From Tetrahymena thermophila SB210 (Eukaryota > Ciliophora > Oligohymenophorea > Hymenostomatida > Tetrahymenidae): DNA of 64,000 nucleotides. This document shows positions 18,399 through 56,763 of the stretch, one piece after another; the first letter of the stretch is position 1; each line of letters starts with the position of its first letter. The stretch is from positions 992,001 to 1,056,000 of the forward strand of contig NW_002476481.1 of assembly GCF_000189635.1 (NCBI RefSeq), given 5' to 3'. The position numbers and the translations under genes are program-made. Below the pieces are notes generated by a model. It was not told the origin of the DNA and made no database searches. It was given only the letters and a program-made list of their open reading frames with translations.

Positions 18399-19095
18399 TA
18401 TTCTTATTTTTATTAAATTAATGTGAAATTAATTCTTTATTAAAAAATGTAGAGAAATCCTATTAAGTTTTTAAACCCTCTAAGCAAGCAATCAAGTCTG
18501 AAGCATGTAAAAAATAAAATAAAAAAAGTTTTTAACTTTTATTTGTTATTTTTGAATAATACCGAATTTAGTTGGAATGATAGAAGTTAATCAGTGGGCA
18601 AATTAGTAAAATAACTTGCTTCGTCTCAAGTAGAAAATAAACAAAATTTTAAAAACTGAATTAATTTTTAACATCCAAAAGACACAACTAAGATCAAGCT
18701 TTAGGAATACTAATTGAGTTAATAATTCTACTATCTTTTATTTAATACAGAAGTCAAATGTCTGATAGAAATTCGTTTAAAAATCTTAGATTTTTTATCA
18801 ATTAATTATTTTTAAATAAATTATTTTTTGACATATAATTCAAAGTTTAATTTAAAACAATTTAATAAAGTAATTCTAAATTCTGATCAAATTTTAAAAT
18901 TTAAATTATTTCTGATTGATTGATAATCAGAAATTGTTGCATTTATTAATATTTTGAAATCATTTAAATGAATTAAAAAAATAAAATTTTAAATCAAAAA
19001 TATTTTAATAATTTATTGATAATCATTTGAAATTACCGATTTCAACAAACAAAAAAATTATATCCTAAAAATGGAATAAAAAGTAGGAAAAAAAT
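18399..19095. other. Intergenic, kinase promoter side
   Basis: AT-rich, no gene seen. It separates the kinase start from the 3' end of the tRNA-Lys gene. Confidence 0.5.
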
Positions 19096-19168
19096 CACCC
19101 ACCGAGGGGCTCGAACCCTCGACCACCAGCTTAAAAGGCTGGCGCTCTACCGACTGAGCTAGACGGGT
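19096..19168 (-). tRNA. tRNA-Lys (anticodon UUU)
   Basis: 73 nt on the minus strand fold into a full cloverleaf: acceptor ACCCGTC pairs with GGTGGGT, D stem GCTC/GAGC, anticodon stem CCAGC/GCTGG around the loop CTTTTAA (anticodon TTT), and T arm with GTTCGAGC. Discriminator G. An oligo-T run follows on the minus strand, fitting a Pol III terminator. There is no intron. Confidence 0.95.
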
Positions 19169-21620
19169 GTTGTGAAATAATTGCTTTGGAAAATATAGGC
19201 AAATATTGTAGTCGAAATTATTGATTCTAGCAAAAACGAAAGTAATTTCAAGTTTATTTATTTGTGAAACTTTCTTAAAAATAAAATATTAGAATAAAAT
19301 AACCAATAAACTAAATAAAAAAATATTCAAAGGATAATTTTATAAAAAAAAAGAATTATTAACGATTTTCAGTTGATTATTATTTTTATTTTTTGTTACC
19401 TGAAAGTTAAATCAATTTTTTACTAAAATTCCCAACTTTCTATTTGATTTAATTTTATCTAAAAATAGAACTATATTAATAGCTTTAATTATTTAAAAGA
19501 ATATTTTGGTATTTTATTGTTATTATTTTTTAAATAATATAATTAAAATAAGAAATATGAAATAAAATATATTATATTGTAAAGATAAAATTTAGTTGAT
19601 TTTTAATTACTCTTATCATATTACCTATTTTATATTTTGAATATTTTGTATACAAGAAGAGAAAATATTACCTATTGCAATAACTGTTATCATAACCCAA
19701 CATTACTCACCACGTAAACTTAAGCCTCAATAACCCTTCTAACCCCTCCCAGAAATTTAGAGTCAAAAAATGTTACCCTGACATAATCTTTAAAACCTTC
19801 TAAATATAGCCTTAATTATTGAGGATACACATTATAAAAACAATAAATATTATTTATGTAAATTAAACTTTTTGATACCACTAAGTACTTGTTAGTTATT
19901 GAACTTGATCGATCATCTCTACCTTAGAATAAATCTTTTTATCTAACTGAAAGACCTCATTTATATAATTTTTTGAATATTATGATTACTATTTACAAAA
20001 AATAGAAACAGTTAGGAAAAATATTTGACTATTTTACTTAATAATAATTATTATTCTTTTGAATATATAGGTATTCTTGAGCCTATATTTTTTATAACTT
20101 AGATCAATTATTTGTATGGATGATTTAATTTTTCTTGATCAATATCTTCAATGTTCTAACTTATTTCATAGCATTTAGTAAATAGCACATTTTTTCATGT
20201 AATGTGAGTTAAATTCCATTTAATTTCTATTTCAAAATTTACATAAAAATTGTATTTATTTATGTAATTTTCCAAGATATTGTTAAGCAATATATAAGTA
20301 TATTATAATTTTTTTATTTCTTTTAGCTTAACTCATCTGCTATATTTATAAATTTTATCAATTAGCTAATTTAGAGTCTTCAGGAAGGGTATCAAATAAT
20401 ATATACCCTTATTTTTTTATTTTTGTATATTACTTCGCTACAAATTATAATACCCAGAATTGTATTACGTTTTCTATGATTAATTATTTAATATGCACTT
20501 GAATTTATTCAAATCAAAAGAACATTCCTTCTTAAAAGAATTTTTTGAAGTTTTCTAAATAACCTTACAGTTAATTTCTGAAAGAAAATATTTGGATGAC
20601 ATATTAACTATATTTATTAGTCTTTATAATACTCGTAGATCTTTTTAGAAACAATTTATTTGAGTTTATCATGCCTTTAAAGGAAAATCATCTTTCATCA
20701 TTAGAGGATATTACTCTCAATGAGTATCACAGTATGTATTTAATGATTAAAGTTTAATTTTTTTGGTTTTTTTTAATATAAAATCTTAAAAGCTTTTCTT
20801 TTTAATAAGGTTTTTATTCTAATATTCATCAATTAATTTGCAGATATTATAAGGTTAAAAATGATTAAAATTTATGTAATGAATGCATATCCTGGCTTAT
20901 AATCAATAGGTATAAAACTTTAAGAGAATATTTTATATTCATTATTTTCTAATACTATTTTATTTAATGTTTTTATTTGTAACAATTTTATTTAGAATTT
21001 ATTTAATTTACTTAAAAGTGTTTATTTAACTTAAAATTTTACATGATAAAAAAGCATTTTAAGAGAATGTATATAATTTATTTATCAAATATTTATTTTA
21101 AATGATTAAAAATTCTCAAGATTGCTAATTAAAAAGAATAAAAATAATAAACTTTTTAATATAATGCTTTTTAATCCCTAATTAATTTTACATTTTTCTT
21201 TTTAATTAAAATTTTTTTGTAAAATTTATCAGGAATATTAAGAAAAATTTATTAGTATTTTATTTCATCTAACTCCATTAAAATATTTAAAATCGAAGAT
21301 AAAATAATTAAGGTAATTGATCGATGATAGTTATTCTAAGTTATTTAAGTAATTGAAGATATTTTATTAAATAATTTGTCTTAAAATATTAAAATTAAAT
21401 GGTTAAAAATATTCTTATGAAGCTGATTAAGTAAAGAAAGTAAATTTAAATATTTTGGTTTTAGAACTTAAACTTTTAATGAGTTCCTGTAAAAATTAGT
21501 TTTTACTTATTGCTTAAATTAAAAATAATTTGAGATAATATTATTCTTTTTTTTTGTTTTGTGCTTTAAAAAATTTATTTTGATTTGTGATAATTTAATC
21601 AAATTATAAAAATAAAAAAG
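19169..21620. other. tRNA spacer with gene-like fragments
   Basis: No confident gene. GC-richer patches with protein-like reading occur on the minus strand at 19680-20200 (described separately) and on the plus strand at 20493-20663 (56-codon ORF) and 20671-21103. None can be joined into a sound model. The rest is AT-rich spacer. Confidence 0.4.
19700..20200 (-). pseudogene. Possible decayed or unmodelled protein-coding gene
   Basis: Minus-strand reading in the ciliate code gives protein-like segments in different frames: one with CYEISQNIEDIDQEKLNH followed by YKQLIQVIKNIGSR (about 20185-20050), one with EVFQLDKKIYSKVEM (about 19955-19905) and one with DYVRVTFFDSKFLGG (about 19785-19740). 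Introns could join them (e.g. a GTCAAA..AAATAG intron between the first two), but the first segment lacks an in-frame ATG and is preceded by TGA. Composition is clearly richer in G and C than the surroundings. No family is recognised. It is either a pseudogene or a real gene whose first exon I missed. Confidence 0.3.
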
Positions 21621-21693
21621 TGTGGATGGAGGGTTTCGATCCCTCTACCTCAAGAGCCACAATCTTACGCTCTTCCGATTGAGCTACATCCAC
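21621..21693 (-). tRNA. tRNA-His (anticodon GUG), copy 1 of 6
   Basis: 73 nt on the minus strand. Acceptor GTGGATG pairs with CATCCAC, D stem GCTC/GAGC, anticodon stem TAAGA/TCTTG around loop TTGTGGC (anticodon GTG), and T stem GAGGG/CCCTC. Discriminator A, and the base before G1 is A, so the extra G-1 typical of tRNA-His must be added after transcription. An oligo-T run follows on the minus strand. The T loop is ATCGAAA, with A instead of T at position 54. Confidence 0.94.
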
Positions 21694-21960
21694 TTCATGA
21701 AATGTATGAAGCTAATTACTTATAACAAAAATAAATGTTTATATCAGAAGAAAATTAAGCTATTTTATTAATATAATCATAATTTAGTGAGAATAAATCT
21801 AAAAACAAACTGCTTTTATAAAAAAATTGGATGGGAAAAAATATTTATTACAAGTATCTCTAAAATATTTAATTTTCTTAAAAATAAATATCTACTTTAA
21901 TAAATTTAAGGTAAAAAATAAAAATTTAAGGATAAATTAAAAAATATAAAATAAAAAAAG

Positions 21961-22033
21961 TGTGGATGGAGGGTTTCGATCCCTCTACCTCAAGAGCCAC
22001 AATCTTACGCTCTTCCGATTGAGCTACATCCAC
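21961..22033 (-). tRNA. tRNA-His (anticodon GUG), copy 2 of 6
   Basis: Identical in sequence to the copy at 21621-21693. The 5' flank (CTTCATGAAATATATGAAA read on the plus strand) is shared with neighbouring copies, and oligo-T follows the 3' end on the minus strand. Confidence 0.94.
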
Positions 22034-22220
22034 TTCATGAAATATATGAAACCACTTTTTAGTGAGAACATTTCTAATTGCTACTAATCCTAAAAAAATT
22101 TTTATGAAAATAATTTTTATAAAATAATTTGAGTTACAAATGATGTATTTAGAAAAAGTAAGTAGCAACTTAAAAATTTTTTGCAACAATTAAAACTTTA
22201 AAAAATATAAAATAAAAAAG

Positions 22221-22293
22221 TGTGGATGGAGGGTTTCGATCCCTCTACCTCAAGAGCCACAATCTTACGCTCTTCCGATTGAGCTACATCCAC
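22221..22293 (-). tRNA. tRNA-His (anticodon GUG), copy 3 of 6
   Basis: Identical in sequence to the other copies, only 187 nt from copy 2. Shares the conserved 5' flank and the 3' oligo-T run. Confidence 0.94.
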
Positions 22294-22646
22294 TTCATGA
22301 AATATATGAAACAACTTACTGATTTCATTTTTGTTTATTAAAAAAAGAAACAAGAAATTAAGTATACATATGATTAAATTCTGGATTAAAATTATACTTA
22401 GACTAAAAAAAGCAAAATAAAGCTAATATAGCTTATTTTTACTGTTATAGATTATGCTTATTAATAATAGGTAGCTTCATTAAAATTTAAACTTTACATC
22501 TTCTTAACAAAAACATTAGTACTCAATTCTTATTACATTAAATCTAGTTTATTTAATATTTTTAATTAGATGCTTTAATTTTCTTAAAAATAGGAATCCG
22601 TCTAGTTAGTCTACACTTTTTAATAGATAACATAAAAATAAAAAAG

Positions 22647-22719
22647 TGTGGATGGAGGGTTTCGATCCCTCTACCTCAAGAGCCACAATCTTACGCTCTT
22701 CCGATTGAGCTACATCCAC
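22647..22719 (-). tRNA. tRNA-His (anticodon GUG), copy 4 of 6
   Basis: Identical in sequence to the other copies. Its 5' flank is longer and similar to that of copy 5 (both contain CATACTCATTTCATTTAAG on the plus strand), so copies 4 and 5 probably arose from one duplication. Confidence 0.94.
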
Positions 22720-22964
22720 TTCACAATATATATGAAAATTCATACTCATTTCATTTAAGTATTTTTTTAAGTTGATATAAATATTCAATTAACAAAGTAA
22801 TGAGCTGAATTTAATAAAAAATTTATAAATAAATTCAGATTTTATTTACCTATTTGTCATAAAATAATTTAGGAAGCTGACTTTAAAATAATTCTTTTAG
22901 AGAAAAACTATTTTACACTTTTCTATATAAAATAAAGCACAATTCAAATTAAAAATAAAAAAAG

Positions 22965-23037
22965 TGTGGATGGAGGGTTTCGATCCCTCTACCTCAAGAG
23001 CCACAATCTTACGCTCTTCCGATTGAGCTACATCCAC
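22965..23037 (-). tRNA. tRNA-His (anticodon GUG), copy 5 of 6
   Basis: Identical in sequence to the other copies, with the same 3' oligo-T run and the extended 5' flank shared with copy 4. Confidence 0.94.
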
Positions 23038-23221
23038 TTCATGATATATATGAAAACTCATACTCATTTCATTTAAGCTTTTATCAATTACAACTTACAT
23101 TCATGTATAAATCAAAAAAATCATCGAAGGTAAAACAAACGCTAGCTGAAAGAAAAATTAGTATTAATTTAATTTTATTAATCAAATGCAATGAATTTAA
23201 ATAATTTAAAAATAAAAAAAG

Positions 23222-23294
23222 TGTGGATGGAGGGTTTCGATCCCTCTACCTCAAGAGCCACAATCTTACGCTCTTCCGATTGAGCTACATCCAC
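23222..23294 (-). tRNA. tRNA-His (anticodon GUG), copy 6 of 6
   Basis: Identical in sequence to the other copies. It is the outermost member of the cluster; its 5' flank keeps the TTCATGATATATGA core and the TTTCATTTAAGC stretch. Confidence 0.94.
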
Positions 23295-42034: not shown

Positions 42035-43551
42035 TTCTTACTACTACTTTATTAGTCAATTTAAGAATAGATTTGATAATTTTACTTGTTTTAAGAAATA
42101 TTATTATTAATTATATTAAAAGCTGAGCGAGCAAACAAGCAAACAAACAATCAAAAGCAAATTCTTCCTCATAGAATTAATTATTGCTATTTTGAATAAT
42201 TTTATGAATGAATACAAATTAACTAGAAGTTCAAATAAATGTATGCTTGCTATTAATTTATCAAAATTTTTGCTTACTTTTGGTTAAATACAAATACATT
42301 CTTCACAATCACCTTAACCAATTTTTATAATTTTTTTTAAGGTGGCAAACAATTTTTTTTCATTCATGATATAATCTTACAAGCTTTTACTTTTTGCATA
42401 TAGTTAAAATTTGCAGAAATTTAAAATTATGTTATTCTCATCAAATTTAAATTAGAGTATTTACACGCACAACTATTTGAGTACTCTACTTGATATCATT
42501 ATTAAAATTCCCTTTTCTTTTTAATTTAAAATTTAAATAGTTTTCAACATACATAATACTAATAAAATTCATGGTATTCACATATTTTTCAAGCACATAT
42601 ATAAACAAAATTATTAACTTACTCATATATACTTAATCTTCGTAGAAATATGAAATTCTTTAATTATAAAATCATGTCGTATTTTTTAAATTCACTCAAC
42701 CAAAATATTTATTTCCAAATTCACCTATCAAATACTTTCATAAAAATATTTATAACTCAATTAAGATATTCATACCAATTAAAAAAATTAAATCTTTGTT
42801 TTGATGAAAAATATTTAAAAGTTAATTAAGCAAAAGATTGAACTTTTTAAAAGATATTATTGTAATAATTTATTTTATGTTATTTTTCATATAAAATATA
42901 TTTAAATTTTTTAATACAAAAAATTTTTTAAAAAGGCTAAAATTAATTAAAAATTTAATAGAAAAATCATAAAGATTGATTGATATAAATTAAAATTATA
43001 AATATTATTAATTAAATTCTATTATAAAATTATTTATTTTTATATAAATTATATTCAAATACATCAGCCATTCAAAAAAATAGTGATCTCAAATCACTAA
43101 ATTTTTGAATGGCATTTGGCTATAATTTAAAATAAAAATAATATACATCTTAAAAAATATTGAGAATACCTATATTATTTAATATAACACATTAATATTA
43201 TTTTCTATTTTTCAAATATTTAATATTTATTCATCCCTTTTTCACCACTTGTTTATCATCAAAATAAATCGAAATATATTTTAAAGACAATTAATCTTTT
43301 TGATTTAAGACATTTACTTTTTACATTCAATTGTTATTATGATTCATTGATTTCATTTTAACTTTAATTATAAATTAAAATAAATTACTAAAAAAAATTA
43401 GATAGAATAAAATTTTTAAATTAAAAATATCTTTAAAATTAATAAAAAAGAAAAATAAATTAAATAAAAAGCTCCAAATAAATTAAAAAGTTTTTAAATC
43501 CATTTTTATATTAAAAAATATCACAATCGAAAACAGTTAAACTGTTTTTAC
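42035..43551. other. Intergenic with hairpin element
   Basis: No confident gene. It includes the hairpin at 43067-43113. A short minus-strand reading ending at TGA 43231-43233 (LKYISIYFDDKQVV) might be the terminal exon of the LRR gene to the right, but its phase does not match. Confidence 0.4.
43067..43113. repeat. Hairpin; second copy of a dispersed element
   Basis: The arms 43067-43087 and 43093-43113 are reverse complements at 19 of 21 positions around a 5-nt loop. The surrounding 42960-43130 resembles 15340-15535, where an imperfect hairpin is followed by the same GGCATTTG sequence. It may be a small dispersed element or a structured RNA. Confidence 0.4.
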
Positions 43552-44498
43552 CTAAGATAAAGTGTCAAATTTGATAGATTAGTATAATTTGCTAAAGTAG
43601 ATCCTAAGTCTGCTCCACCATTTGCATCAATTAAATTATCACTTTTTAAATATTGAAGAAAAAATATTTTATTAATTAGGTAGAAGAAAAAAATGGAGAA
43701 AAAATATGAAATAAAAAGATATTAATAATAATAAAAGCAAAATTTGAAAATATAAAAACAAGATAAATTAAAAAAGATTTAAAAAAAACGTAAGTAATAA
43801 AAAAGAAAAACAAAAATTAATCAAATAAAAACAAATTAAAATAGTTTAAATATATTATTTTAAATTCATTTTATATTTAAAAATATCAAAATTGAAAACA
43901 AATAAAATGTTTTTACCTAAGACAGAGTGTCAAATTTGAGAGATTAGTGCAATTTGCTAAAGCTGAACCTAAACCACATGCACCTTATTTACCAATTTTA
44001 TTGAAGCTTTATAGAAGAAAAAAATTGTATTATTTTGTTATTTTGAAGAAAAAAATGATTAAAATATGAAATAATAAAAACAAACTTTGAAAATAAAAAA
44101 ATGAGTTAAATTAAGAAAGATAAAAATAATAAACGTACAATTTAAAATAAAAAGAAAAATAAATCATAAAAAAAGCTAATAAACAAATTAAAAGAGCTTA
44201 TATATATTGTTTGTTTTAATTCATTTTTTTAACTATAAATATCATAATCTAAAACAAATAAGCAATTTTTACTCAAGGTAAAGTGCCAAATTTGAGAGAT
44301 TAGTGCTATTAGCTAAAGCAATACCTAAGCGTTATGCCCCTACATCACCAATTTTATTGTGACTTTTGAAATATTGAAGAAAAAATATTTAATTTGTTAT
44401 CTAGAAGAAAAAATTTGAAATAATAAGAAATGAATTAATCAATAATAATAATAAAAGCAAAATTTGAAAATAAGACAATAAATTAAATTAAGAAAGAT

Positions 44499-44552
<54 letters not shown>

Positions 44553-47500
44553 GAGAAAAATAAAGAAAGACAAGTAGAATAAAAAATAAAAAGAAAAGTA
44601 AATTAAATAAAAAGCTAACAAACAAATTAAAAGTGTTTAAATATATTGTTTAAATTCATTTTTATAACTAAAATTATCACAATTGATAAAAAATATATTA
44701 TTTTTACCAAATTTTGAGCGTCAAATATGAGAGATTAGAGCAATTTGCTAAAGCAGAACCTAATCCTGATACTCCAATTACACCGATTTAATTGAAACTT
44801 TTTAAATATTGATAAATATATATTTAATTAATAAGTTACTTAGAAAGAAAAAATGAATAAAAAAGAAATAATAAGAAATCAATCAATTAATAAAAAAAAT
44901 TTTAAAATATAAAAATGAGTAAAATTAAGAAAGATAGAGAAAGAAAAAGAAAAATAATCAAATAAAAAGCGAATAAACAAATTAAAAATGTTTAAATATA
45001 TTGTTTAAATTCATTTTTTTAAACTAAAAATATCAAAAAATCTAAAATAAATAAACTTTTTTACTAAATATCAAGTGTCAAATTAGATAGATTAGTGCAA
45101 TTTGCTAAAGCGGTACCTAAGCATGATGTACCTTCATCACCAATTTAATTGGAACTTTTTAAATATTGAAGAAAAAATATATAATTTATTAGTTAGTTAG
45201 AAGAAAAAAATGAAGAAATAAAATTAAAATAATAATAAAAGCACAATTTAAAAATAAAAAAATGAGTTAAATTAGCAAAGATTGAAGAAAAAAAAAAACA
45301 CAAATACAATAAAAAAGGTAAATAAAAAGCTAATAAAAAAATCGAAATAGTTTTAATATATTGTTTAAACTCATTTTAAAAAGTAAAAATATCACTATCC
45401 AAAACAAAAAATTTTTTTACCCAAGATTAAGTGTCAACTTTGAGAGATTAGTGCAACTTGCTAAAGCAGATACTAAGCCAGATGCACCAAATGCACCAAT
45501 TTAATTATCACTTTTTAAATATTGAAAAAAAAATTTTTAATTAACTTGTTATTTTGAAGGAAAAAATGAATAAAAAATATGAAATAATAAGAATAATAAT
45601 AAAAGAAAAATTTGAAAATAAAAAATGAATTAAATTAAGAAATAAAAAAAAGCACAAATTCAATAAATAAGAAAAAAAAAAGAAATTAAATAAAAAGCTT
45701 ATAAACAAATTAAAAGAGTCTAAATATATTTATTATTTTAAATTCATTTTTACTTACATTAAAAAATATCACAACAAGTCTCAATCTGAACCAACAAATG
45801 AAATCCATATCTAATGTGGTCTGGAACAAAAAGAAGGCAAATTAAATAAATATTATATTTTATTATGTGAATAAAGCAGGATTTATAGTTTAAATTCATT
45901 TTAAACTATACTTGCTCACTATAAATAATCTAAAATTCAATAATTTGTATACTTAATAAGCATAAAAATAAATAAAAATATAAATAAATATTATAAAATA
46001 GTTAATTTAAGAGTTATTCTGAGTGCATATTTATGTGCGAGTATTTCTATTCTATTCTCTCTATTCTTACCAATTTAATTCCTACTTTTTAAGTATTGAT
46101 GAAAGAAATATTATTATTTTGTTATTTTGAAGGAAAAAATGAATAAAAAATATGAAAAAATAAGAAATGGATTAATTAATTAATAATAAATAAATAACTA
46201 AAAGCAAAATTTGAAAATAAAAAAATGAGTTAAATTAAGAAAGATAAAAGAAAAAAATAATACAAGTATAATTAAAAAGAAAGAAAAAAACCATATGAAA
46301 AGCTAATAAACAAATTAAAAGAATTTAAATATATTGTTTAAATTCATATTAATAACTAAAAATATCATAATCCAAGACTAATAATTTTTTTTACCCAAGA
46401 TTAAGTGTCAACTTTGAGAGATTAGAGCAATTTGTTAAAGCAGAAACTAAGCCATATGCACCTTATTCGCCAATTTAATTATCACTTTTTAAATATTGAA
46501 GAGAAAATTATTTATTATTTTATTATTTTGAAGGAAAAAATCAAATAAAAAGCTAATTAAAAAATTAAAAGAGTTTAAATATATTAGAAAATTAGACAAT
46601 CGTAAATAAATAAACTGTTTTTTACACTAGTTAAAGTGCCAAATCTGAGAGATAAGTGCAATTTGCTAAAGCAATACCTAAGTCCGATGCTCCTTATTTA
46701 CCAATTTAATTCCTACTTTTTAAATGTTGAAGAAAAAAATATAATTATTTTGTTATTTTGAAGGAAACAATTAATATAAAATTTGAAATAATAAGAAATT
46801 AACGAATAATAATAAATGAAAAATTTGAAAATATAAAAATGAAATGAGTTAAATTAAGAAATATAAAAAAAACACAAGTATAATAAAAATAAATTAAATA
46901 AAAAGCTAATAAATAAATTAAAATAGTTTAAATATATTGTTTAAATTCATTTTTACAACTAAAAATATCACAATCGAAACAAATAAACTTTTTTACTAAA
47001 GATCAAGTGTTAAATTAGAGAGATTAGTGCAATTTGCTAAAGCAACACCTAAGCCTGATGCACCTTTTTAACCAATTTAATTGTAACTTTTAAATATTGA
47101 AGAAAAAACATTTAATTAATTGGCTATTTAGAAGGAAAAAATGAAGGAAGAACAAAAATGAAATGATGAGGTGAGTAAGTTAAATTAAGAAAGATAGAAG
47201 AAAAAAAAGTATAATTAAAAAGAAAATTAAAATTAAATCAAATAAAAAGCTAATAAACAAGTTAAAAGAGTTTAAATATATTGTTTAAATTTATTTTTAA
47301 TAACTAAAAATATCGCAATTCAAAAAAAATAAATTTTTTTACCCAAGATTAAGTATCAAATTTGAGAGGTTTTTGCAATTTGATAAAGCAGAACCTAAGT
47401 CTAATACACTGATTGCACCAATTTAATTATCACTTTTTAAATATTGAAGAAAAAATATTTAGTTTGTTAAAATAAAAAATGAGTTAATAAAGATTGAAAA

Positions 47501-47745
47501 AAAACAAAAACACAAGTGCAATAAAAAACTAAATCAAATTAAATCAAATAAATAAATAGCTTATAAGCAAATTAAAAGAGCTTTATTATATTATTTTAAA
47601 TTTATTTTTATAACTAAAAATATCACAGTCCAAAACAAATAAATTTTAATTTTACACAAGATTAATTGTCAAATTTGAGAGATTAGTGCAATTTGCTAAA
47701 ACAGAACCTAAAACTGATGAACCTTCATCACCAATTTATTTCTAA
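43552..47745 (-). CDS. LRR gene made of eleven 90-bp exons (ends not resolved)
   Basis: On the minus strand eleven exons, each exactly 90 bp, encode one ribonuclease-inhibitor-type LRR apiece: 47745-47656, 47432-47343, 47086-46997, 46715-46626, 46484-46395, 45510-45421, 45154-45065, 44797-44708, 44362-44273, 44006-43917 and 43641-43552. The consensus is NQIGxxGAxxLGSALANC followed by TNLSNLTLxL. Every exon starts at the last base of a codon after an AAAG or AAG acceptor and ends two bases into a codon before GTAAAA, so exons splice in frame in any number. Introns are also related to each other, showing that the unit duplicated was exon plus intron. The stacked repeats should form a curved binding surface. 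No first or last exon was found; the ORF at 49255-50049 may be related. Whether the transcript is functional is unproved, but no exon of the eleven carries a TGA. Confidence 0.75.
44508..44552 (+). repeat. (GATA)n microsatellite
   Basis: About 11 perfect copies of the tetranucleotide inside an intron of the LRR exon array. Confidence 0.95.
45770..46084 (-). pseudogene. Broken LRR exon unit within the array
   Basis: A unit of the array where only the start of the exon remains: from 46084 the minus strand reads RNQIGK in the family frame and then loses similarity after about 20 nt. The rest of the interval (45770-46060) is unrelated to the array and contains a palindrome ATAGTTTAAA..TTTAAACTAT at about 45885-45909. 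This looks like a deletion-replacement or insertion that destroyed one repeat. Confidence 0.6.
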
Positions 47746-48604
47746 CTTTTAAATATTTAAGAAATAATATATAACTAATTAGTTAGTTAGAAGAAAAAAA
47801 TGAAGAAAAAAATCAAATAATAAGAAATAAATTAAAAAATAAAAATAAAAGCAAAATTATAAAATAAAAAAATGAATTAATAAAGATTGGAAAAAAATAA
47901 CACAAGCACAATAAAAAAGGCAAAAAAAATTTAAAGAGTTTAAATATATTATTTTAATTCATAAATATAACTAAAAATATCACTATCAAAATACACATAA
48001 ACTGTTATCATCAAGTAAAAGTATTAGAAAGAAAAAATGAAAAAAAAATTTCAAATAATAAAAAATGGATAATGAATTTAAAAATTGAAAGTGAAAATTA
48101 AGTTAAAATAACTTTAAAAAAATTTGTATTAAAAAAAGAATGAAAGAAAGAATATAGGTGAGAATTACTATTAGAAAAATAATATTCTAAATAAATTGTA
48201 AGTTAAATATATAGAAAGTATTAATAATAATAATATTTATAAATTAAATATACTTCAAATTAATATGGAGAAACTAATGAGATTAGAGTGAAGAGCTTAA
48301 AAACTTTATATTAATAAAAATAAATTTAAAGATTATTGATAAAAAAAGAAATAATTACTTCTTCTAATGTATTATATAATTTAATCTATTTTACCATTTA
48401 TTTTTTTTTTAATATTGAAAAGCAAAAAAAATAATATAAATTTAATTAATTATAAGCGGATAAAAAGAACAAATAAATTATATGTATTTATAATTTTGCT
48501 TTTATAAACAAAAAAAGTTAGCGTAAAATTCATTCATTATTTAATCTTAATATTTCTATTTAAAATGTGTATTTAAAAATATAGTAAGAACTACAGGTGG
48601 CTAA

Positions 48605-48669
<65 letters not shown>

Positions 48670-51806: not shown

Positions 51807-54436
51807 ATAATTTTAAATTTTACAAAATTGATTTATATATTTGATTATTATACTAATACTTTGCACTTTCCAACAAATGACTCTTCAAGATTATTTTGAG
51901 TGAGTGATGGATTTTTTTCAAATCATATTATTTTTTATCTTTTATTATTTTATGTTATTTACTTACTATTTTAAAAAAAATCATTTGATATGAAATAAAT
52001 GTAGTCATTATGCATAAAAAATTATTTTACGTTGAAAATATCTTATTTATTTCTTAATAAAATAACCAAAGCTAAGTATTTTAAAAACTTCGATTTAATA
52101 ATTTAAACCAATCGAAAAAAGCCAAATTAAATTTTTACTCCTTATTTATTAAGTTTTTTTATATTAAAATCTAATAAATTATTTTATTTAATTTCTCATA
52201 AATTACAAATAAAACTTGGTTAATTTATTTATGTATTATGAATAATATCTTGATTATTTTGTTTTGAAAACTACTTTTTTAAAAATTGTATATAAAAATT
52301 TGAAAGTAAAATAAATTAAAATATTAAAAGTTTGATTATAGGATAGAAATGTAAAGAGGAAAATAAATTATTTTTAAAATTATATTACTTCTTAATATTC
52401 AATTATTAATGAATAAAAATATTCTATAAATAATTTATAGTGTAATAAGAGTAAATTTTTAAATATTAATTCAATTATAAATTATTTACATATTTGCACT
52501 TTAATATTAAAGCTAAAATTAAAAATTTGCAAAATCATCTAAATAATTAGCAATAGAAGCAGTTTAGCCTCTTTTCAAAAGACAGATTAGATAGAATTTA
52601 TCTTTTTAATGGAGATTTTTCTAGCAAAATAATTAAATGTTTAATTTTACAATTTATAAATAAAATAAGCTATTCTTTATTAATTGTTTTTATATATTAA
52701 TCGTGATTATTTAGCATTTTTTTAAATGAAGAAAAGTAATATTATTTGTTTGTAATTAATTTATAAATGAGTGATAAACTCATGAATTTTACTTTTAGAG
52801 AAAATCAATAATATAAATTTATTGATATAAAATGAAAGCTTTACAATATGATTATTCGATTACATTATTATCGCTATTAAAAAAGTGAAATTATTACTAA
52901 AATATTCATATTCTTTATTAATTTTTTACTAAAAAAATTACTAATTTTTAAAGATAATTTTTTTAACGATAAAAATATTTAATTAAATTTAAATATGGCA
53001 TTAAACAAATAAAACTCTAACTGATAAAAATAAATAAAAATGATAATTAAATAAATCTTATTATGAACAATATTTCCAAATATTCAAAATTTACCTTAGC
53101 ATAAAATAATGGATCTATCATATAAAAAAATTAAATAAATAATTAAATGAACTAAAAAATAAACAAATAATTCTAAAATATAAAATTTCTATTATAATAA
53201 ATGCTTTTTCAAAAGAAATATTTTTATTATCATTTCTTTAAGTACTTTAATCTTTTTAAAAATTGTAGTTTTTTGCTTTGTACAAATTCTGAAAAATAAT
53301 TTTAAATAAATATCCATTTAGTATTCATTTAGATTTAATTTGTTTTTATTTGATTTGAATAATTATCTAGAATAGTTTAAAGAGACCAATATTTCTAATC
53401 AAAACAAAATTATTAATTAAGGTTTTAATAATAGACTAAAAATCGAATTAGATACTTAAGCTTTTATTTGGTATTTAGAATATATTTTAAATTTACAAAA
53501 TTAAACTATACTGAATCATGAATTTTTTTAATTATAAAACATTAAAAATTCTATGAAATTTTAAATATTAACCATCAGAAAAAATAATTTTAATTAAATT
53601 CAATAAAGGTTTCAAATTTTAGTATGATTTTTACTTTTTGTTAGCAATTAATTTGTTTCAAATTGTAAAAAAAAAAATGGTGTTTTATTTTATTTGATAA
53701 AAATATTTGACTAAATATTTATGAAAGATACATTTATTGAAGATATATGAAACTTGCTTGGCTAAAAAGTAAGTGGCCTTGGTAAAATAAAAATTTAATT
53801 AGAAAAAATAAATAAACAATTAATTTGCTTTATAAGCTAGCTGATTTTTTTCAGTCAGTTTATATCTTCCAATAAATTTATTGTTAAAAAGTAATTGTAT
53901 GAAAAGAAGAAATTAATAGAATGAAGAATTAAGCAATAGATTAGCATGCATGATAAACAGAAAAAGAGCGGTTATTAAATATTTGGGTGTGTTAATTAAA
54001 TTTGTTTCTAAGAATTTATTTGTTAAGAAATATTGCGCAAAAATTAATTGCACTTACATTAAATTATATATATATGTTTGACTCATTAAGTATTGAATTG
54101 TATATTCCCATAATACCAAAGAAAATACTAACAAATACAATAAATATTAATTAATAAATTAAAAAAGCAAACAAATAACAAGAAAACTCTATCTAACAAG
54201 CACCTTCATATACAACAAATTCTACTACTCCCAATTAGGCCTAATAAAATACCCAATAGCAAATTGCACTTATAAATTGAATAAAGCTCTCTATATTAGC
54301 CATTCTTTTAGTAAAAATTAGCACGCATAACTAAACACTTGTGTTATAAACCCATCATTGAAAACTAAATATTTTATCTAATATAAGCAATTGCCTTTTA
54401 AATCTGCACTCAAATATATTATTTTTAGAAACTCCT
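51807..54436. other. Long AT-rich intergenic region, no gene seen
   Basis: About 2.6 kb without a supportable gene, RNA or repeat. It becomes less AT-rich only in the last 250 bases, which should hold the 5' leader and promoter of the Cdh1-type gene. Confidence 0.5.
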
Positions 54437-56763
54437 ATGAGTAATTAAGTTTAAACTATTGAAAGCGAGCAATATCCTTTGTGTGCTATGGACGAAAATC
54501 TACTTTTTTCCTCGAATAAAAATTAAAACTTTACGCAGGAATCGTCTGCCAAGCATAATTATTTTAATAACTCCTAAAGCGATAAAAAAAAGAGCTTAAG
54601 CTCAAATAAGGAGAATAGCTCTTCAACTTAATATGTTAAGGAAGGGCTAATTTCTCTTCATTTTAATAATAAAAGCGAAATGGTGGTTTAACCTTTCTCT
54701 AGTTAAAATGCTTAAACCAAATTACACTAGTTACCTTCTTTTAGATAAGCTAATCATAATTAAACATGTAAAACTGCTGACAAAATGTTTGAGAGAAAAG
54801 CCCATCAAAATTAGAGAGAAACTGAATCAGCTATTTAAATAGAGCTCTCACCTGGATGGACTGCTTCTTCTAGTATATCACAGCGCCAGATCCACTCAGA
54901 AAAATCCGAAATGCAAGAGGAAGAAACCCAAGAAATGACTGGAAATGGAATAGCTAGATCTGAGTTAAAAGATGTTGTCCGCAATCTTAATCTGATAGAT
55001 TTGGCTAAAACTGAGGATGAAAGCCCTATGTCTCAAAGTTTAAGTGCATTAAGTAGCAGTAATCTTTTCAGGAGTGAATCTAATAATAGCACAACATCTG
55101 ATTAATTTTTAAGAGAAATCAGCACAAATATCCTCAATTAAAACTCTTAAAATGATTTCATAACTTTAGATAAGAAACAAAAGTTCTACAAAAAGTGTAA
55201 TTTTGATCGCTTTATACCTTCAAGAGTTGAGTCTGATACATACAAACTTTTTTAAATTCACTCATAAATGGAACTTGACTAAGCAAATCATTAGCAAAAC
55301 TTATAATCTAATTAGTAAAACTCAAATAATAACATAAAGGAAGAATAAAATAGACAGCTCTACCATAATTTACTGCATGCCCATTTCTTAGAAAACAACA
55401 CTGTGATAAACCACAACTATTGTTCACCTGCCGATGATACCTCTCTCTTTGCCAATTCTTAAGAAAGCGCATCTAAATAAAGCCAATTTAAACCTTTAAA
55501 AAAGTTGTTTTCATACGGTGAAAATAATTCTTCCTCAAATATGTAATCAAACAATAGCTCCTCTCTTTCTTCATTTATGCCACCTTCTTCTTCCTCATCT
55601 TCTTCAAAAAAATCTTCTATTTATTAATCACTTATTAACTTGCCTGATAATAACATGTACATGAGAGATGAAACACCTAAGCTCAAAATAAATCCTCGTC
55701 CTTACAAAATATTGGAAGCACCAACGCTAAAAAATGATTTCTACTTAAATCTTTTGGACTGGAGTGCTTCCAATCTTGTTTCTGTCGGACTTGAAAATTA
55801 CGTTTATGTTCTTTCAGGAGCTAATCAAAGCGTTAAAACATAATTCACTATACCAGAATATGTTGATCATAATTTATTGAAGATGTAAAGTGGTTAAGAT
55901 TAAATATAGCAATCAGATTATTATAATATGGTTTGTTCTGTAGGATGGTCTTAAATTTCAGATCATATTTCAGTAGGAGACAGATAAGGAAAGGTTTATT
56001 TATTCGATTTGACTAAAAATAAGTTTTTGAGAGTTATGCAGAATCACACAGGGAGAGTAGGTTAAATAGCTTGGAATGGAAACTTGATTGCTACAGGTTC
56101 TCGTGATAAAAACATTATCATAACAGATATTCGTGATAAAAGCTCTAATTCCATAGTATTTAAAGGACATGAACAAGTAACATAATTAATAAAATAAATA
56201 TAATTATTTTTCTAAAATTAAATCTTTTAAAATAGGAAATTTGTGGAATGAGATGGTCTTTTGATGAGTAAACTCTAGCTTCAGGTGGAAATGACAATAA
56301 AGTATTTTTATGGTCTTTGAAAATGAATGGAAAATTAGCTAAAATCTCATCAAGTAAAGCAGCTGTTAAGGCTATTGGTTTTTCCCCACATTAACATAAT
56401 ATTCTCGCATTCGGTGGTGGTACAGCTGACAGATGTATTAGAATATATGACACTTAGCAATTAAAATAAATAGAATGTATAGATACAGGCTCTTAAGTTT
56501 GTAATTTAATATTCTCCAAAAACAGCAGATAAATCATTTCAACACACGGTTATTCGTTGAACCACATACAAATTTGGAACTAATCAAATATGAAAAAATT
56601 AGCAACCTTGACTGGTCACACTTAAAGAGTACTCTATCTCGCGGAAAGCCCATGTGGATAAAATATCTTAACTGGAGCCGCAGATGAAACGATCAGATTC
56701 TGGAATATATTTAAAAATGATACAGTTAATGAGCTTTCTCCTTCAAGTCTTGGTTTAAGGTGA
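54437..56763 (+). CDS. CDH1: Cdh1/fizzy-related APC/C activator (WD40)
   Basis: Two exons, 54437-56176 and 56236-56763, separated by a 59-nt intron, give 755 aa. The C-box DRFIPSR is at residues 257-263, preceded by a Ser/Asn-rich extension far longer than usual (about 40-50 residues precede it in animal and yeast Cdh1). A second disordered Ser-rich stretch follows. The linker KLKINPRPYKILEAPTL leads into FYLNLLDWSASNLVSVGL, the entry to the seven-bladed WD40 propeller (SRDKNI, WSFDEQTLASGGND, GGGTADRCIRIYD, LTGAADETIRFWN). The protein ends LGLR, close to the Ile-Arg tail that docks on the APC/C. The C-box sequence favours Cdh1/fizzy-related over Cdc20. The role is to recruit substrates to the APC/C ubiquitin ligase in late mitosis and G1. 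The intron falls inside the propeller. The start was taken as the first ATG in the open frame; further upstream starts cannot be excluded. Confidence 0.93.

Follow-up and report, generated by a model that had tools for sequence, protein, structure and literature searches.

A fixed insertion site within 90-bp leucine-rich repeat exons of Tetrahymena thermophila, likely used by a non-LTR retrotransposon

A stretch of 64,000 nucleotides from Tetrahymena thermophila SB210 (assembly GCF_000189635.1, contig NW_002476481.1, positions 992,001 to 1,056,000 of the forward strand), hereafter the window, whose numbering is used throughout, carries a leucine-rich repeat (LRR) gene with 11 LRR exons of exactly 90 bp each on the minus strand, between positions 43552 and 47745. 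This array belongs, as an ordinary member, to a published family of LRR genes with 90-bp exons (Xiong et al., 2019, PMC6564038, represented here by the available part of its text), and its architecture is already known. What is new is that a retroelement remnant occupies a fixed position within one of the repeat exons. Based on the position of this remnant and of its copies elsewhere in the genome, we consider it likely that a retrotransposon without long terminal repeats (non-LTR), most likely Tt.REP, uses the 90-bp LRR exons as its specific landing site and places its 3′ end after nucleotide 18–19 of the exon.

The remnant in the window is 281 bp long, lies between LRR exons 5 and 6, and is part of a dispersed retroelement. 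The exon-to-exon step at this place is 974, and the unit there has lost its exon to the insertion. Two features describe the event:

46066..46084, minus strand: stump of the lost LRR exon, of which ~19 nt from the start remain after an intact acceptor; the inserted element comes next
45786..46065, minus strand: 3′-end remnant of the retroelement, its 3′ end facing the exon start, antisense to the gene; probable Tt.REP tail

On its exon side the remnant displays short AGAAT tandem repeats, followed by a conserved core. A search with positions 45786–46066 as query gave 40 matches, the remnant itself included (40 of 135 candidates scored). Among the matches listed are copies at 99% on contigs C167 and C161 and at 96% on C119; most others cover only the first ~100 bases of the remnant, at 79–88%. 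The copy on C167 (locus L049) differs from that of the window by one mismatch and one gap in 275 positions, while the surrounding LRR units are far less alike. The core occurs in 20 exact copies in the genome, and a 30-nt version of it in 114 copies within three mismatches (backward control: 0).

The exon side was read in 40 of these about 114 copies, namely that of the window, the best element matches (L060–L063), 15 exact core copies and 20 copies with two mismatches. The 15 are all exact core copies beyond those already read; the 20 come first in a listing by contig, one already-read place having been skipped. In 39 of the 40 copies, an LRR acceptor and the first ~19 exon bases precede the core at a distance of 12–24 nt, so that the joint falls directly after about nucleotide 18–19 of an LRR exon, always in one orientation. 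For each of the 39, the profile score of the site is higher than that of all 300 shuffles of the same flank. The joint lies directly behind a conserved AATTGG stretch which encodes the conserved LRR residues NQIG. Five further copies, at loci fetched for their LRR similarity (L049 (as L017), L012, L020/L050, L045 and L058), show the same joint and orientation by eye. Beyond the remnant, L063 retains the 3′ part of an LRR exon (profile E 2.7e-4) and L062 a short exon end recognized by eye. Since both loci keep exon parts beyond the remnant, it was the exon itself that was struck.

Copies at one position and in one orientation may have arisen by repeated insertion, or by a single insertion that was later multiplied as the LRR units around it were duplicated. 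We compared 276 pairs among 24 copies, leaving aside L071 and 20 short loci (L079–L098), with the element taken over 100 bp and the LRR flank as 40 intron plus 16 exon bases. The 19 pairs with an element identity of at least 95% have a mean flank identity of 0.770 (0.66–0.89), compared to 0.767 in the other 257 element pairs. Intact units display a mean flank identity of 0.815 (sd 0.077; 95th percentile 0.929), and none of the 19 pairs reaches 0.929. In the comparison of the window with L049, the element is identical (1.000 over 100 bp) at a 176-bp flank identity of 0.774. The flanks of near-identical elements are no more alike than those of other pairs, which argues for independent insertion instead of hitchhiking. 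A single insertion followed by spread would draw on the fact that LRR units do duplicate, and the S30 legend of PMC6564038 points to a clade formed by LRR introns with the remnant. Against these flank identities, however, hitchhiking of the remnant with duplicated units is largely refuted, and we regard it as very improbable. Flank identity likewise lends no support to an element that carries LRR flank along at its 3′ side. The comparison thus supports independent, partly recent and apparently site-specific insertions at one position and in one orientation.

The element from which the remnant derives is probably Tt.REP, judging by tail length, copy number and LRR setting. Tt.REP is a non-LTR retrotransposon of T. 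thermophila (Fillingham, 2004, as cited in PMC6564038 and PMC5182062). According to the available text of PMC6564038, its conserved 54-bp 3′ tail is present in 169 macronuclear copies, the body of REP is excised from the macronucleus, LRR genes are closely associated with the element, and LRR introns are named as its favoured target. The conserved block computed here over 41 copies comprises 55 columns, conserved at 70% or more save for two, with 24 columns fixed by the choice of copies; its length, close to the published 54 bp, makes Tt.REP the likely owner. The copy number is of the same order as well (114 for the 30-nt core at up to three mismatches vs 169 published). That the tail belongs to a germline element other than Tt.REP appears unlikely, given that the published tail is conserved, macronuclear and tied to the group III LRR genes of that study, and that the block described here, partly shaped by selection of copies as it is, occurs in the same setting. 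A single RVT_1 place was found in the assembly, on the minus strand of C134:180300–183500 (L099), where a frame of at least 464 codons is open in genetic code 6. As a tie between tail and Tt.REP this place was rejected, the tail not being present in the 3.2 kb read there.

A fixed insertion site within an exon was not found in the available parts of the literature on Tt.REP and LRR genes, about which Fillingham (2004) may say more. An exon broken by the insertion would be annotated as intron, and the intron target named by Xiong et al. (2019) may be explained in this way.

The array that received the insertion consists of the following parts:

48254..48397, minus strand: exon 1, 144 nt, ATG in A-rich AAAATAAATG context, phase 0 as assembled
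47746..48253, minus strand: intron 1, 508 bp, GTATAT...AAAAG, resembling intron 1 of relatives
47656..47745, minus strand: LRR exon 1, 90 bp, phase 2/2
47343..47432, minus strand: LRR exon 2, 90 bp
46997..47086, minus strand: LRR exon 3, 90 bp
46626..46715, minus strand: LRR exon 4, 90 bp; the intron after it is short (141 bp)
46395..46484, minus strand: LRR exon 5, 90 bp
45421..45510, minus strand: LRR exon 6, 90 bp
45065..45154, minus strand: LRR exon 7, 90 bp
44708..44797, minus strand: LRR exon 8, 90 bp
44273..44362, minus strand: LRR exon 9, 90 bp
43917..44006, minus strand: LRR exon 10, 90 bp
43552..43641, minus strand: LRR exon 11, 90 bp
43259..43316, minus strand: terminal exon, 58 nt, stop TGA, in frame with the array

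All 11 LRR exons of the window have AG directly before and GTAA directly after them, with phase 2 on both sides, and all are open in this phase, running in frame to the TGA of the terminal exon. With the ciliate code (code 6), in which TGA is the stop, none of them contains an in-frame TGA; the coding frame has 0 of 319 codons, the other two frames 13 of 330 and 8 of 319. Fifteen in-frame TAA or TAG codons are spread over 10 of the 11 exons, which therefore are open only under the ciliate code. The ten introns between the LRR exons range from 141 to 884 bp, and their median of 266.5 bp agrees with the length published for group III (peak near 257 bp). The G+C content is 12–17% in introns and 33% in exons. 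A GATA-type microsatellite lies at 44507–44552, within the intron after LRR exon 8.

These data bear out the architecture given in the original prediction: a span of 43552..47745 with 11 phase-symmetric exons of 90 bp is exact in extent and count, with phase 2/2 in 11 of 11; the introns are related as claimed, whole exon/intron units of the array being ~60–80% alike in DNA; and each exon corresponds to one 30-residue unit, hence one LRR. The claim that exons can be added or lost in frame agrees with the finding that none of the 110 ordered joins of different window exons gives a stop. The span of the original prediction omitted the first exon, the terminal exon and the exon-less unit between exons 5 and 6.

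A search with the repeat unit, in which 40 of 1535 candidates were scored, gave at least 294 genomic matches, and LRR matches across the genome read through TAA and TAG. One of the contigs, C97, starts with CCCCAA telomere repeats. An exon for telomerase reverse transcriptase agrees with the T. thermophila PDB chains 2r4g and 5c9h at 101 of 102 aligned residues, and 6d6v is matched as well. Two large open reading frames of the window had no PDB hit. A profile built from the 11 window exons was run on the window and 20 fetched arrays, which were picked for similarity to the window's unit and hence are not a random sample. It returned 246 matches, of which one weak match and two edge matches were removed. 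Exactly 90 bp together with both AG and GT is observed in 231 of the remaining 243; ten are 90 bp long and lack one of the dinucleotides, and two of 84 or 87 bp have both. In-frame TGA is absent from all 6699 codons of the 231 exons, compared to 332 of 6930 and 181 of 6699 in the other two frames. With an A+T content of ~80% in the window region, open frames might be expected to arise by chance. That 231 of 243 matches have the exact length and both splice borders, and that in-frame TGA is absent, rules this out, and such an explanation can for practical purposes be dismissed.

The number of exact exons per stretch varies from 2 to 20 (22 stretches, some of them limited by the ends of the fetched DNA), and 119 of 53361 ordered joins of all 231 exons would give a stop. 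Pairwise comparison of 230 units gives a mean difference of 0.192 for the exons; for the introns it is 0.314 over the 40 bases that follow GT and 0.167 over the final 20 ahead of AG. An arrangement suited to easy change in repeat number had been proposed for the window array. The variable exon number, the loss of an exon by insertion within the window array and the in-frame joins speak in its favour, and the idea is supported here; it is also the thesis of Xiong et al. (2019) in the text available, which describes arrays of exactly 90-bp exons with phase-2 introns, the arrays being spread by ectopic recombination. The young group III of that study has an intron length peak near 257 bp and is masked by one of 8 repeat consensus sequences. 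A role of such genes in the recognition of bacteria is proposed there as an untested idea.

Exon 1 was found from an alignment of 12 5′ leaders, selected for matching that of the window, over ~500–900 bp. A first exon that is open and ends in phase 2 is present in 9 of the 12, the exceptions being the window, L040 and L057. The start and the end of exon 1 in the window resemble the family in different frames. With its first exon out of frame in the assembly, the gene of the window is probably broken and may encode no protein; the copy is probably a pseudogene or contains an assembly error in exon 1. In L040 (20 exons in the stretch read) and L057 (14 exons), the first exon is likewise out of frame as assembled. 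With three of 12 leaders affected, the window included, decay or misassembly of the first exon does not appear to be rare. A search with the family exon-1 peptide, a majority sequence composed by eye, found at least 43 of 48 residues matched at 150 of 150 scored places (150 of 531 candidates scored). Intact copies of exon 1 thus seem common, in a sample biased to good matches. By hand count, 6 of the 150 scored places have a TGA inside exon 1, and the window's own exon 1 is absent among the matches listed. At the other end of the gene, a terminal block is by eye common to 18 of 20 aligned 3′ flanks of arrays, that of the window included, with L044 and L052 lacking it.

Upstream of exon 1, at a distance of ~200 bp, a GTTA microsatellite of ~15 units extends over 48606–48669. 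An inverted repeat with 12-nt arms, capable of forming a hairpin, is located at 43067–43113, ~150 bp beyond the stop codon; the first 520 bp of the other 19 aligned 3′ flanks showed no such repeat.

Without exon 1, the predicted spliced product has 348 residues with 11 units of 30. Its sequence matches are LRRs of the ribonuclease inhibitor (RI) type in 5irm, which we take to be NOD2, and in RSP15, DRC5 and RanGAP. The Pfam family LRR_6 matches at 44.8 bits (cut-off 23.4), and the Pfam scan of the product without exon 1 displayed no domain besides LRR. Conserved repeat positions are occupied by Leu, Asn, Ile and Gly. Over the 231 exons, entropy peaks at residue 1 (3.78 bits), at the junction residue, the codon of which is split by the intron (3.63 bits; n = 209), at residue 7 (3.07 bits) and at residue 28 (2.92 bits). 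The x positions of the LxLxxN motif form the concave face of an LRR. With the register taken from the RI-like matches, residues 1 and 28, together with the junction residue, are predicted to be such x positions.

The proportions of nonsynonymous and synonymous differences (pN/pS) are 0.222/0.253 among the 11 window exons, 0.184/0.170 in 6000 sampled pairs and 0.166/0.144 within loci. The corresponding corrected ratios (dN/dS) are 0.85, 1.09 and 1.18; values per site are noisy, and saturated at variable sites. The ratio is near neutral, and positive selection is not established by it; frame and structural residues are constrained. A diversified recognition surface, as suggested for this array in the original prediction, is therefore upheld in one respect only: three of the four entropy peaks are predicted to lie on the concave face, a pattern that fits the idea, whereas corrected dN/dS values of 0.85–1.18 do not depart clearly from neutrality.

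It might further be argued that the window harbours a working, alternatively spliced recognition gene, in which the choice of exons varies and concave-face residues are selected to vary. Phase symmetry would permit free choice of exons, as the 110 stop-free joins illustrate, and the entropy maxima at residue 1, residue 28 and the junction residue are in line with such a gene. However, exon 1 of the window is out of frame, and corrected dN/dS is 0.85 within the array and near 1 in the wider samples. Moreover, purifying selection by Ka/Ks is reported for most such genes in the available text of PMC6564038, and the term 'alternative splic' occurs 0 times in its main text. Taken together, we consider a gene of this kind unlikely. 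The interpretation in the original prediction holds in part; the alternative splicing that it envisaged finds no support here.

Instead, the window's gene is very probably a member of the published family with a short first exon, 11 RI-like LRR units and a TGA tail exon, in which unequal exchange and independent insertions of Tt.REP have been at work. Unequal exchange between similar exon/intron units would lengthen and shorten the arrays, at no cost to the frame because each unit is phase-symmetric. In independent insertions the 3′ end of the retroelement would become joined to the exon at about nucleotide 18–19. The struck exon would then be passed over in splicing, and the gene would lose one repeat; as the exons are 90 bp in phase 2/2, skipping would keep the frame. 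We propose that the host family tolerates the element because its exons are phase-symmetric and expendable and because the body of the element is removed from the somatic genome.

Several points weigh against this account. The gene model was read from genomic sequence alone, and with the 144 nt of exon 1 in phase 0 the window's copy has no reading frame that runs on from its first exon as assembled. Among the 40 copies read, L071 is without the insertion site; by eye, a decayed form of it is possible. Flank pairs among L064, L068 and L069 as well as L060/L049 lie above the background mean, none of them above the 95th percentile. Identical elements between dissimilar flanks might in principle also result from gene conversion that is limited to the element. 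The link to Tt.REP is drawn from the 55-column block (24 columns by selection) and from copy number, and not from sequence comparison, and the single RVT_1 place of the assembly comes without the tail.

If the exons are indeed a landing site, parasite and exon arrays can expand together. The association between REP and LRR genes, published and so far unexplained, would become concrete in the form of one position, one orientation, and repeated, partly recent insertion. The insertion pattern also offers a reason why conserved LRR codons would serve well as a target. Expendable in-frame exons could survive repeated insertions, which is a possible reason for the persistence of exact length and phase.

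Elsewhere in the window, six tRNA-His genes with equal Rfam scores stand in a row on the minus strand (21620–23294; ~257–426 bp from start to start), accompanied by a tRNA-Lys gene at 19095–19169. A plus-strand open reading frame at 54362–56251 has a partial match to WD40 proteins of the CDC20/Fizzy type (E 1.9e-33; 116.5 bits at a cut-off of 200), which falls below the cut-off perhaps because introns split the gene.

With the family described in the available text of PMC6564038, the array shares 90-bp exons, phase-2 introns, an LRR product, an intron length of ~257–266 bp, similarity of units at the DNA level, variable exon number and REP remnants in or near genes. The array itself differs in nothing; what is added here is a fixed site within the exon, compared to the intron target of the paper. 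Tt.REP, as far as described there, resembles the present element in a 3′ tail kept in the macronucleus, a tie to young LRR genes and a copy number of the same order, and differs in that the element is known here from its tail alone and was matched by description.

RI-type LRR proteins (5irm, RanGAP, RSP15, DRC5) have RI-like repeats of a similar pattern; in the present case the unit is 30 residues long and encoded by one exon each in phase 2, and LRR is the only domain found. R1 and R2 are site-specific non-LTR retrotransposons of ribosomal DNA (rDNA). They have in common with the element described here that insertion recurs at a single position, and in a single orientation, within a conserved target present in many copies. 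In contrast to R1 and R2, the target is a family of protein-coding exons instead of rDNA, and the element is known here without its enzyme. Should our reading hold, a retroelement would live in a protein-coding exon family as R1 and R2 do in rDNA.

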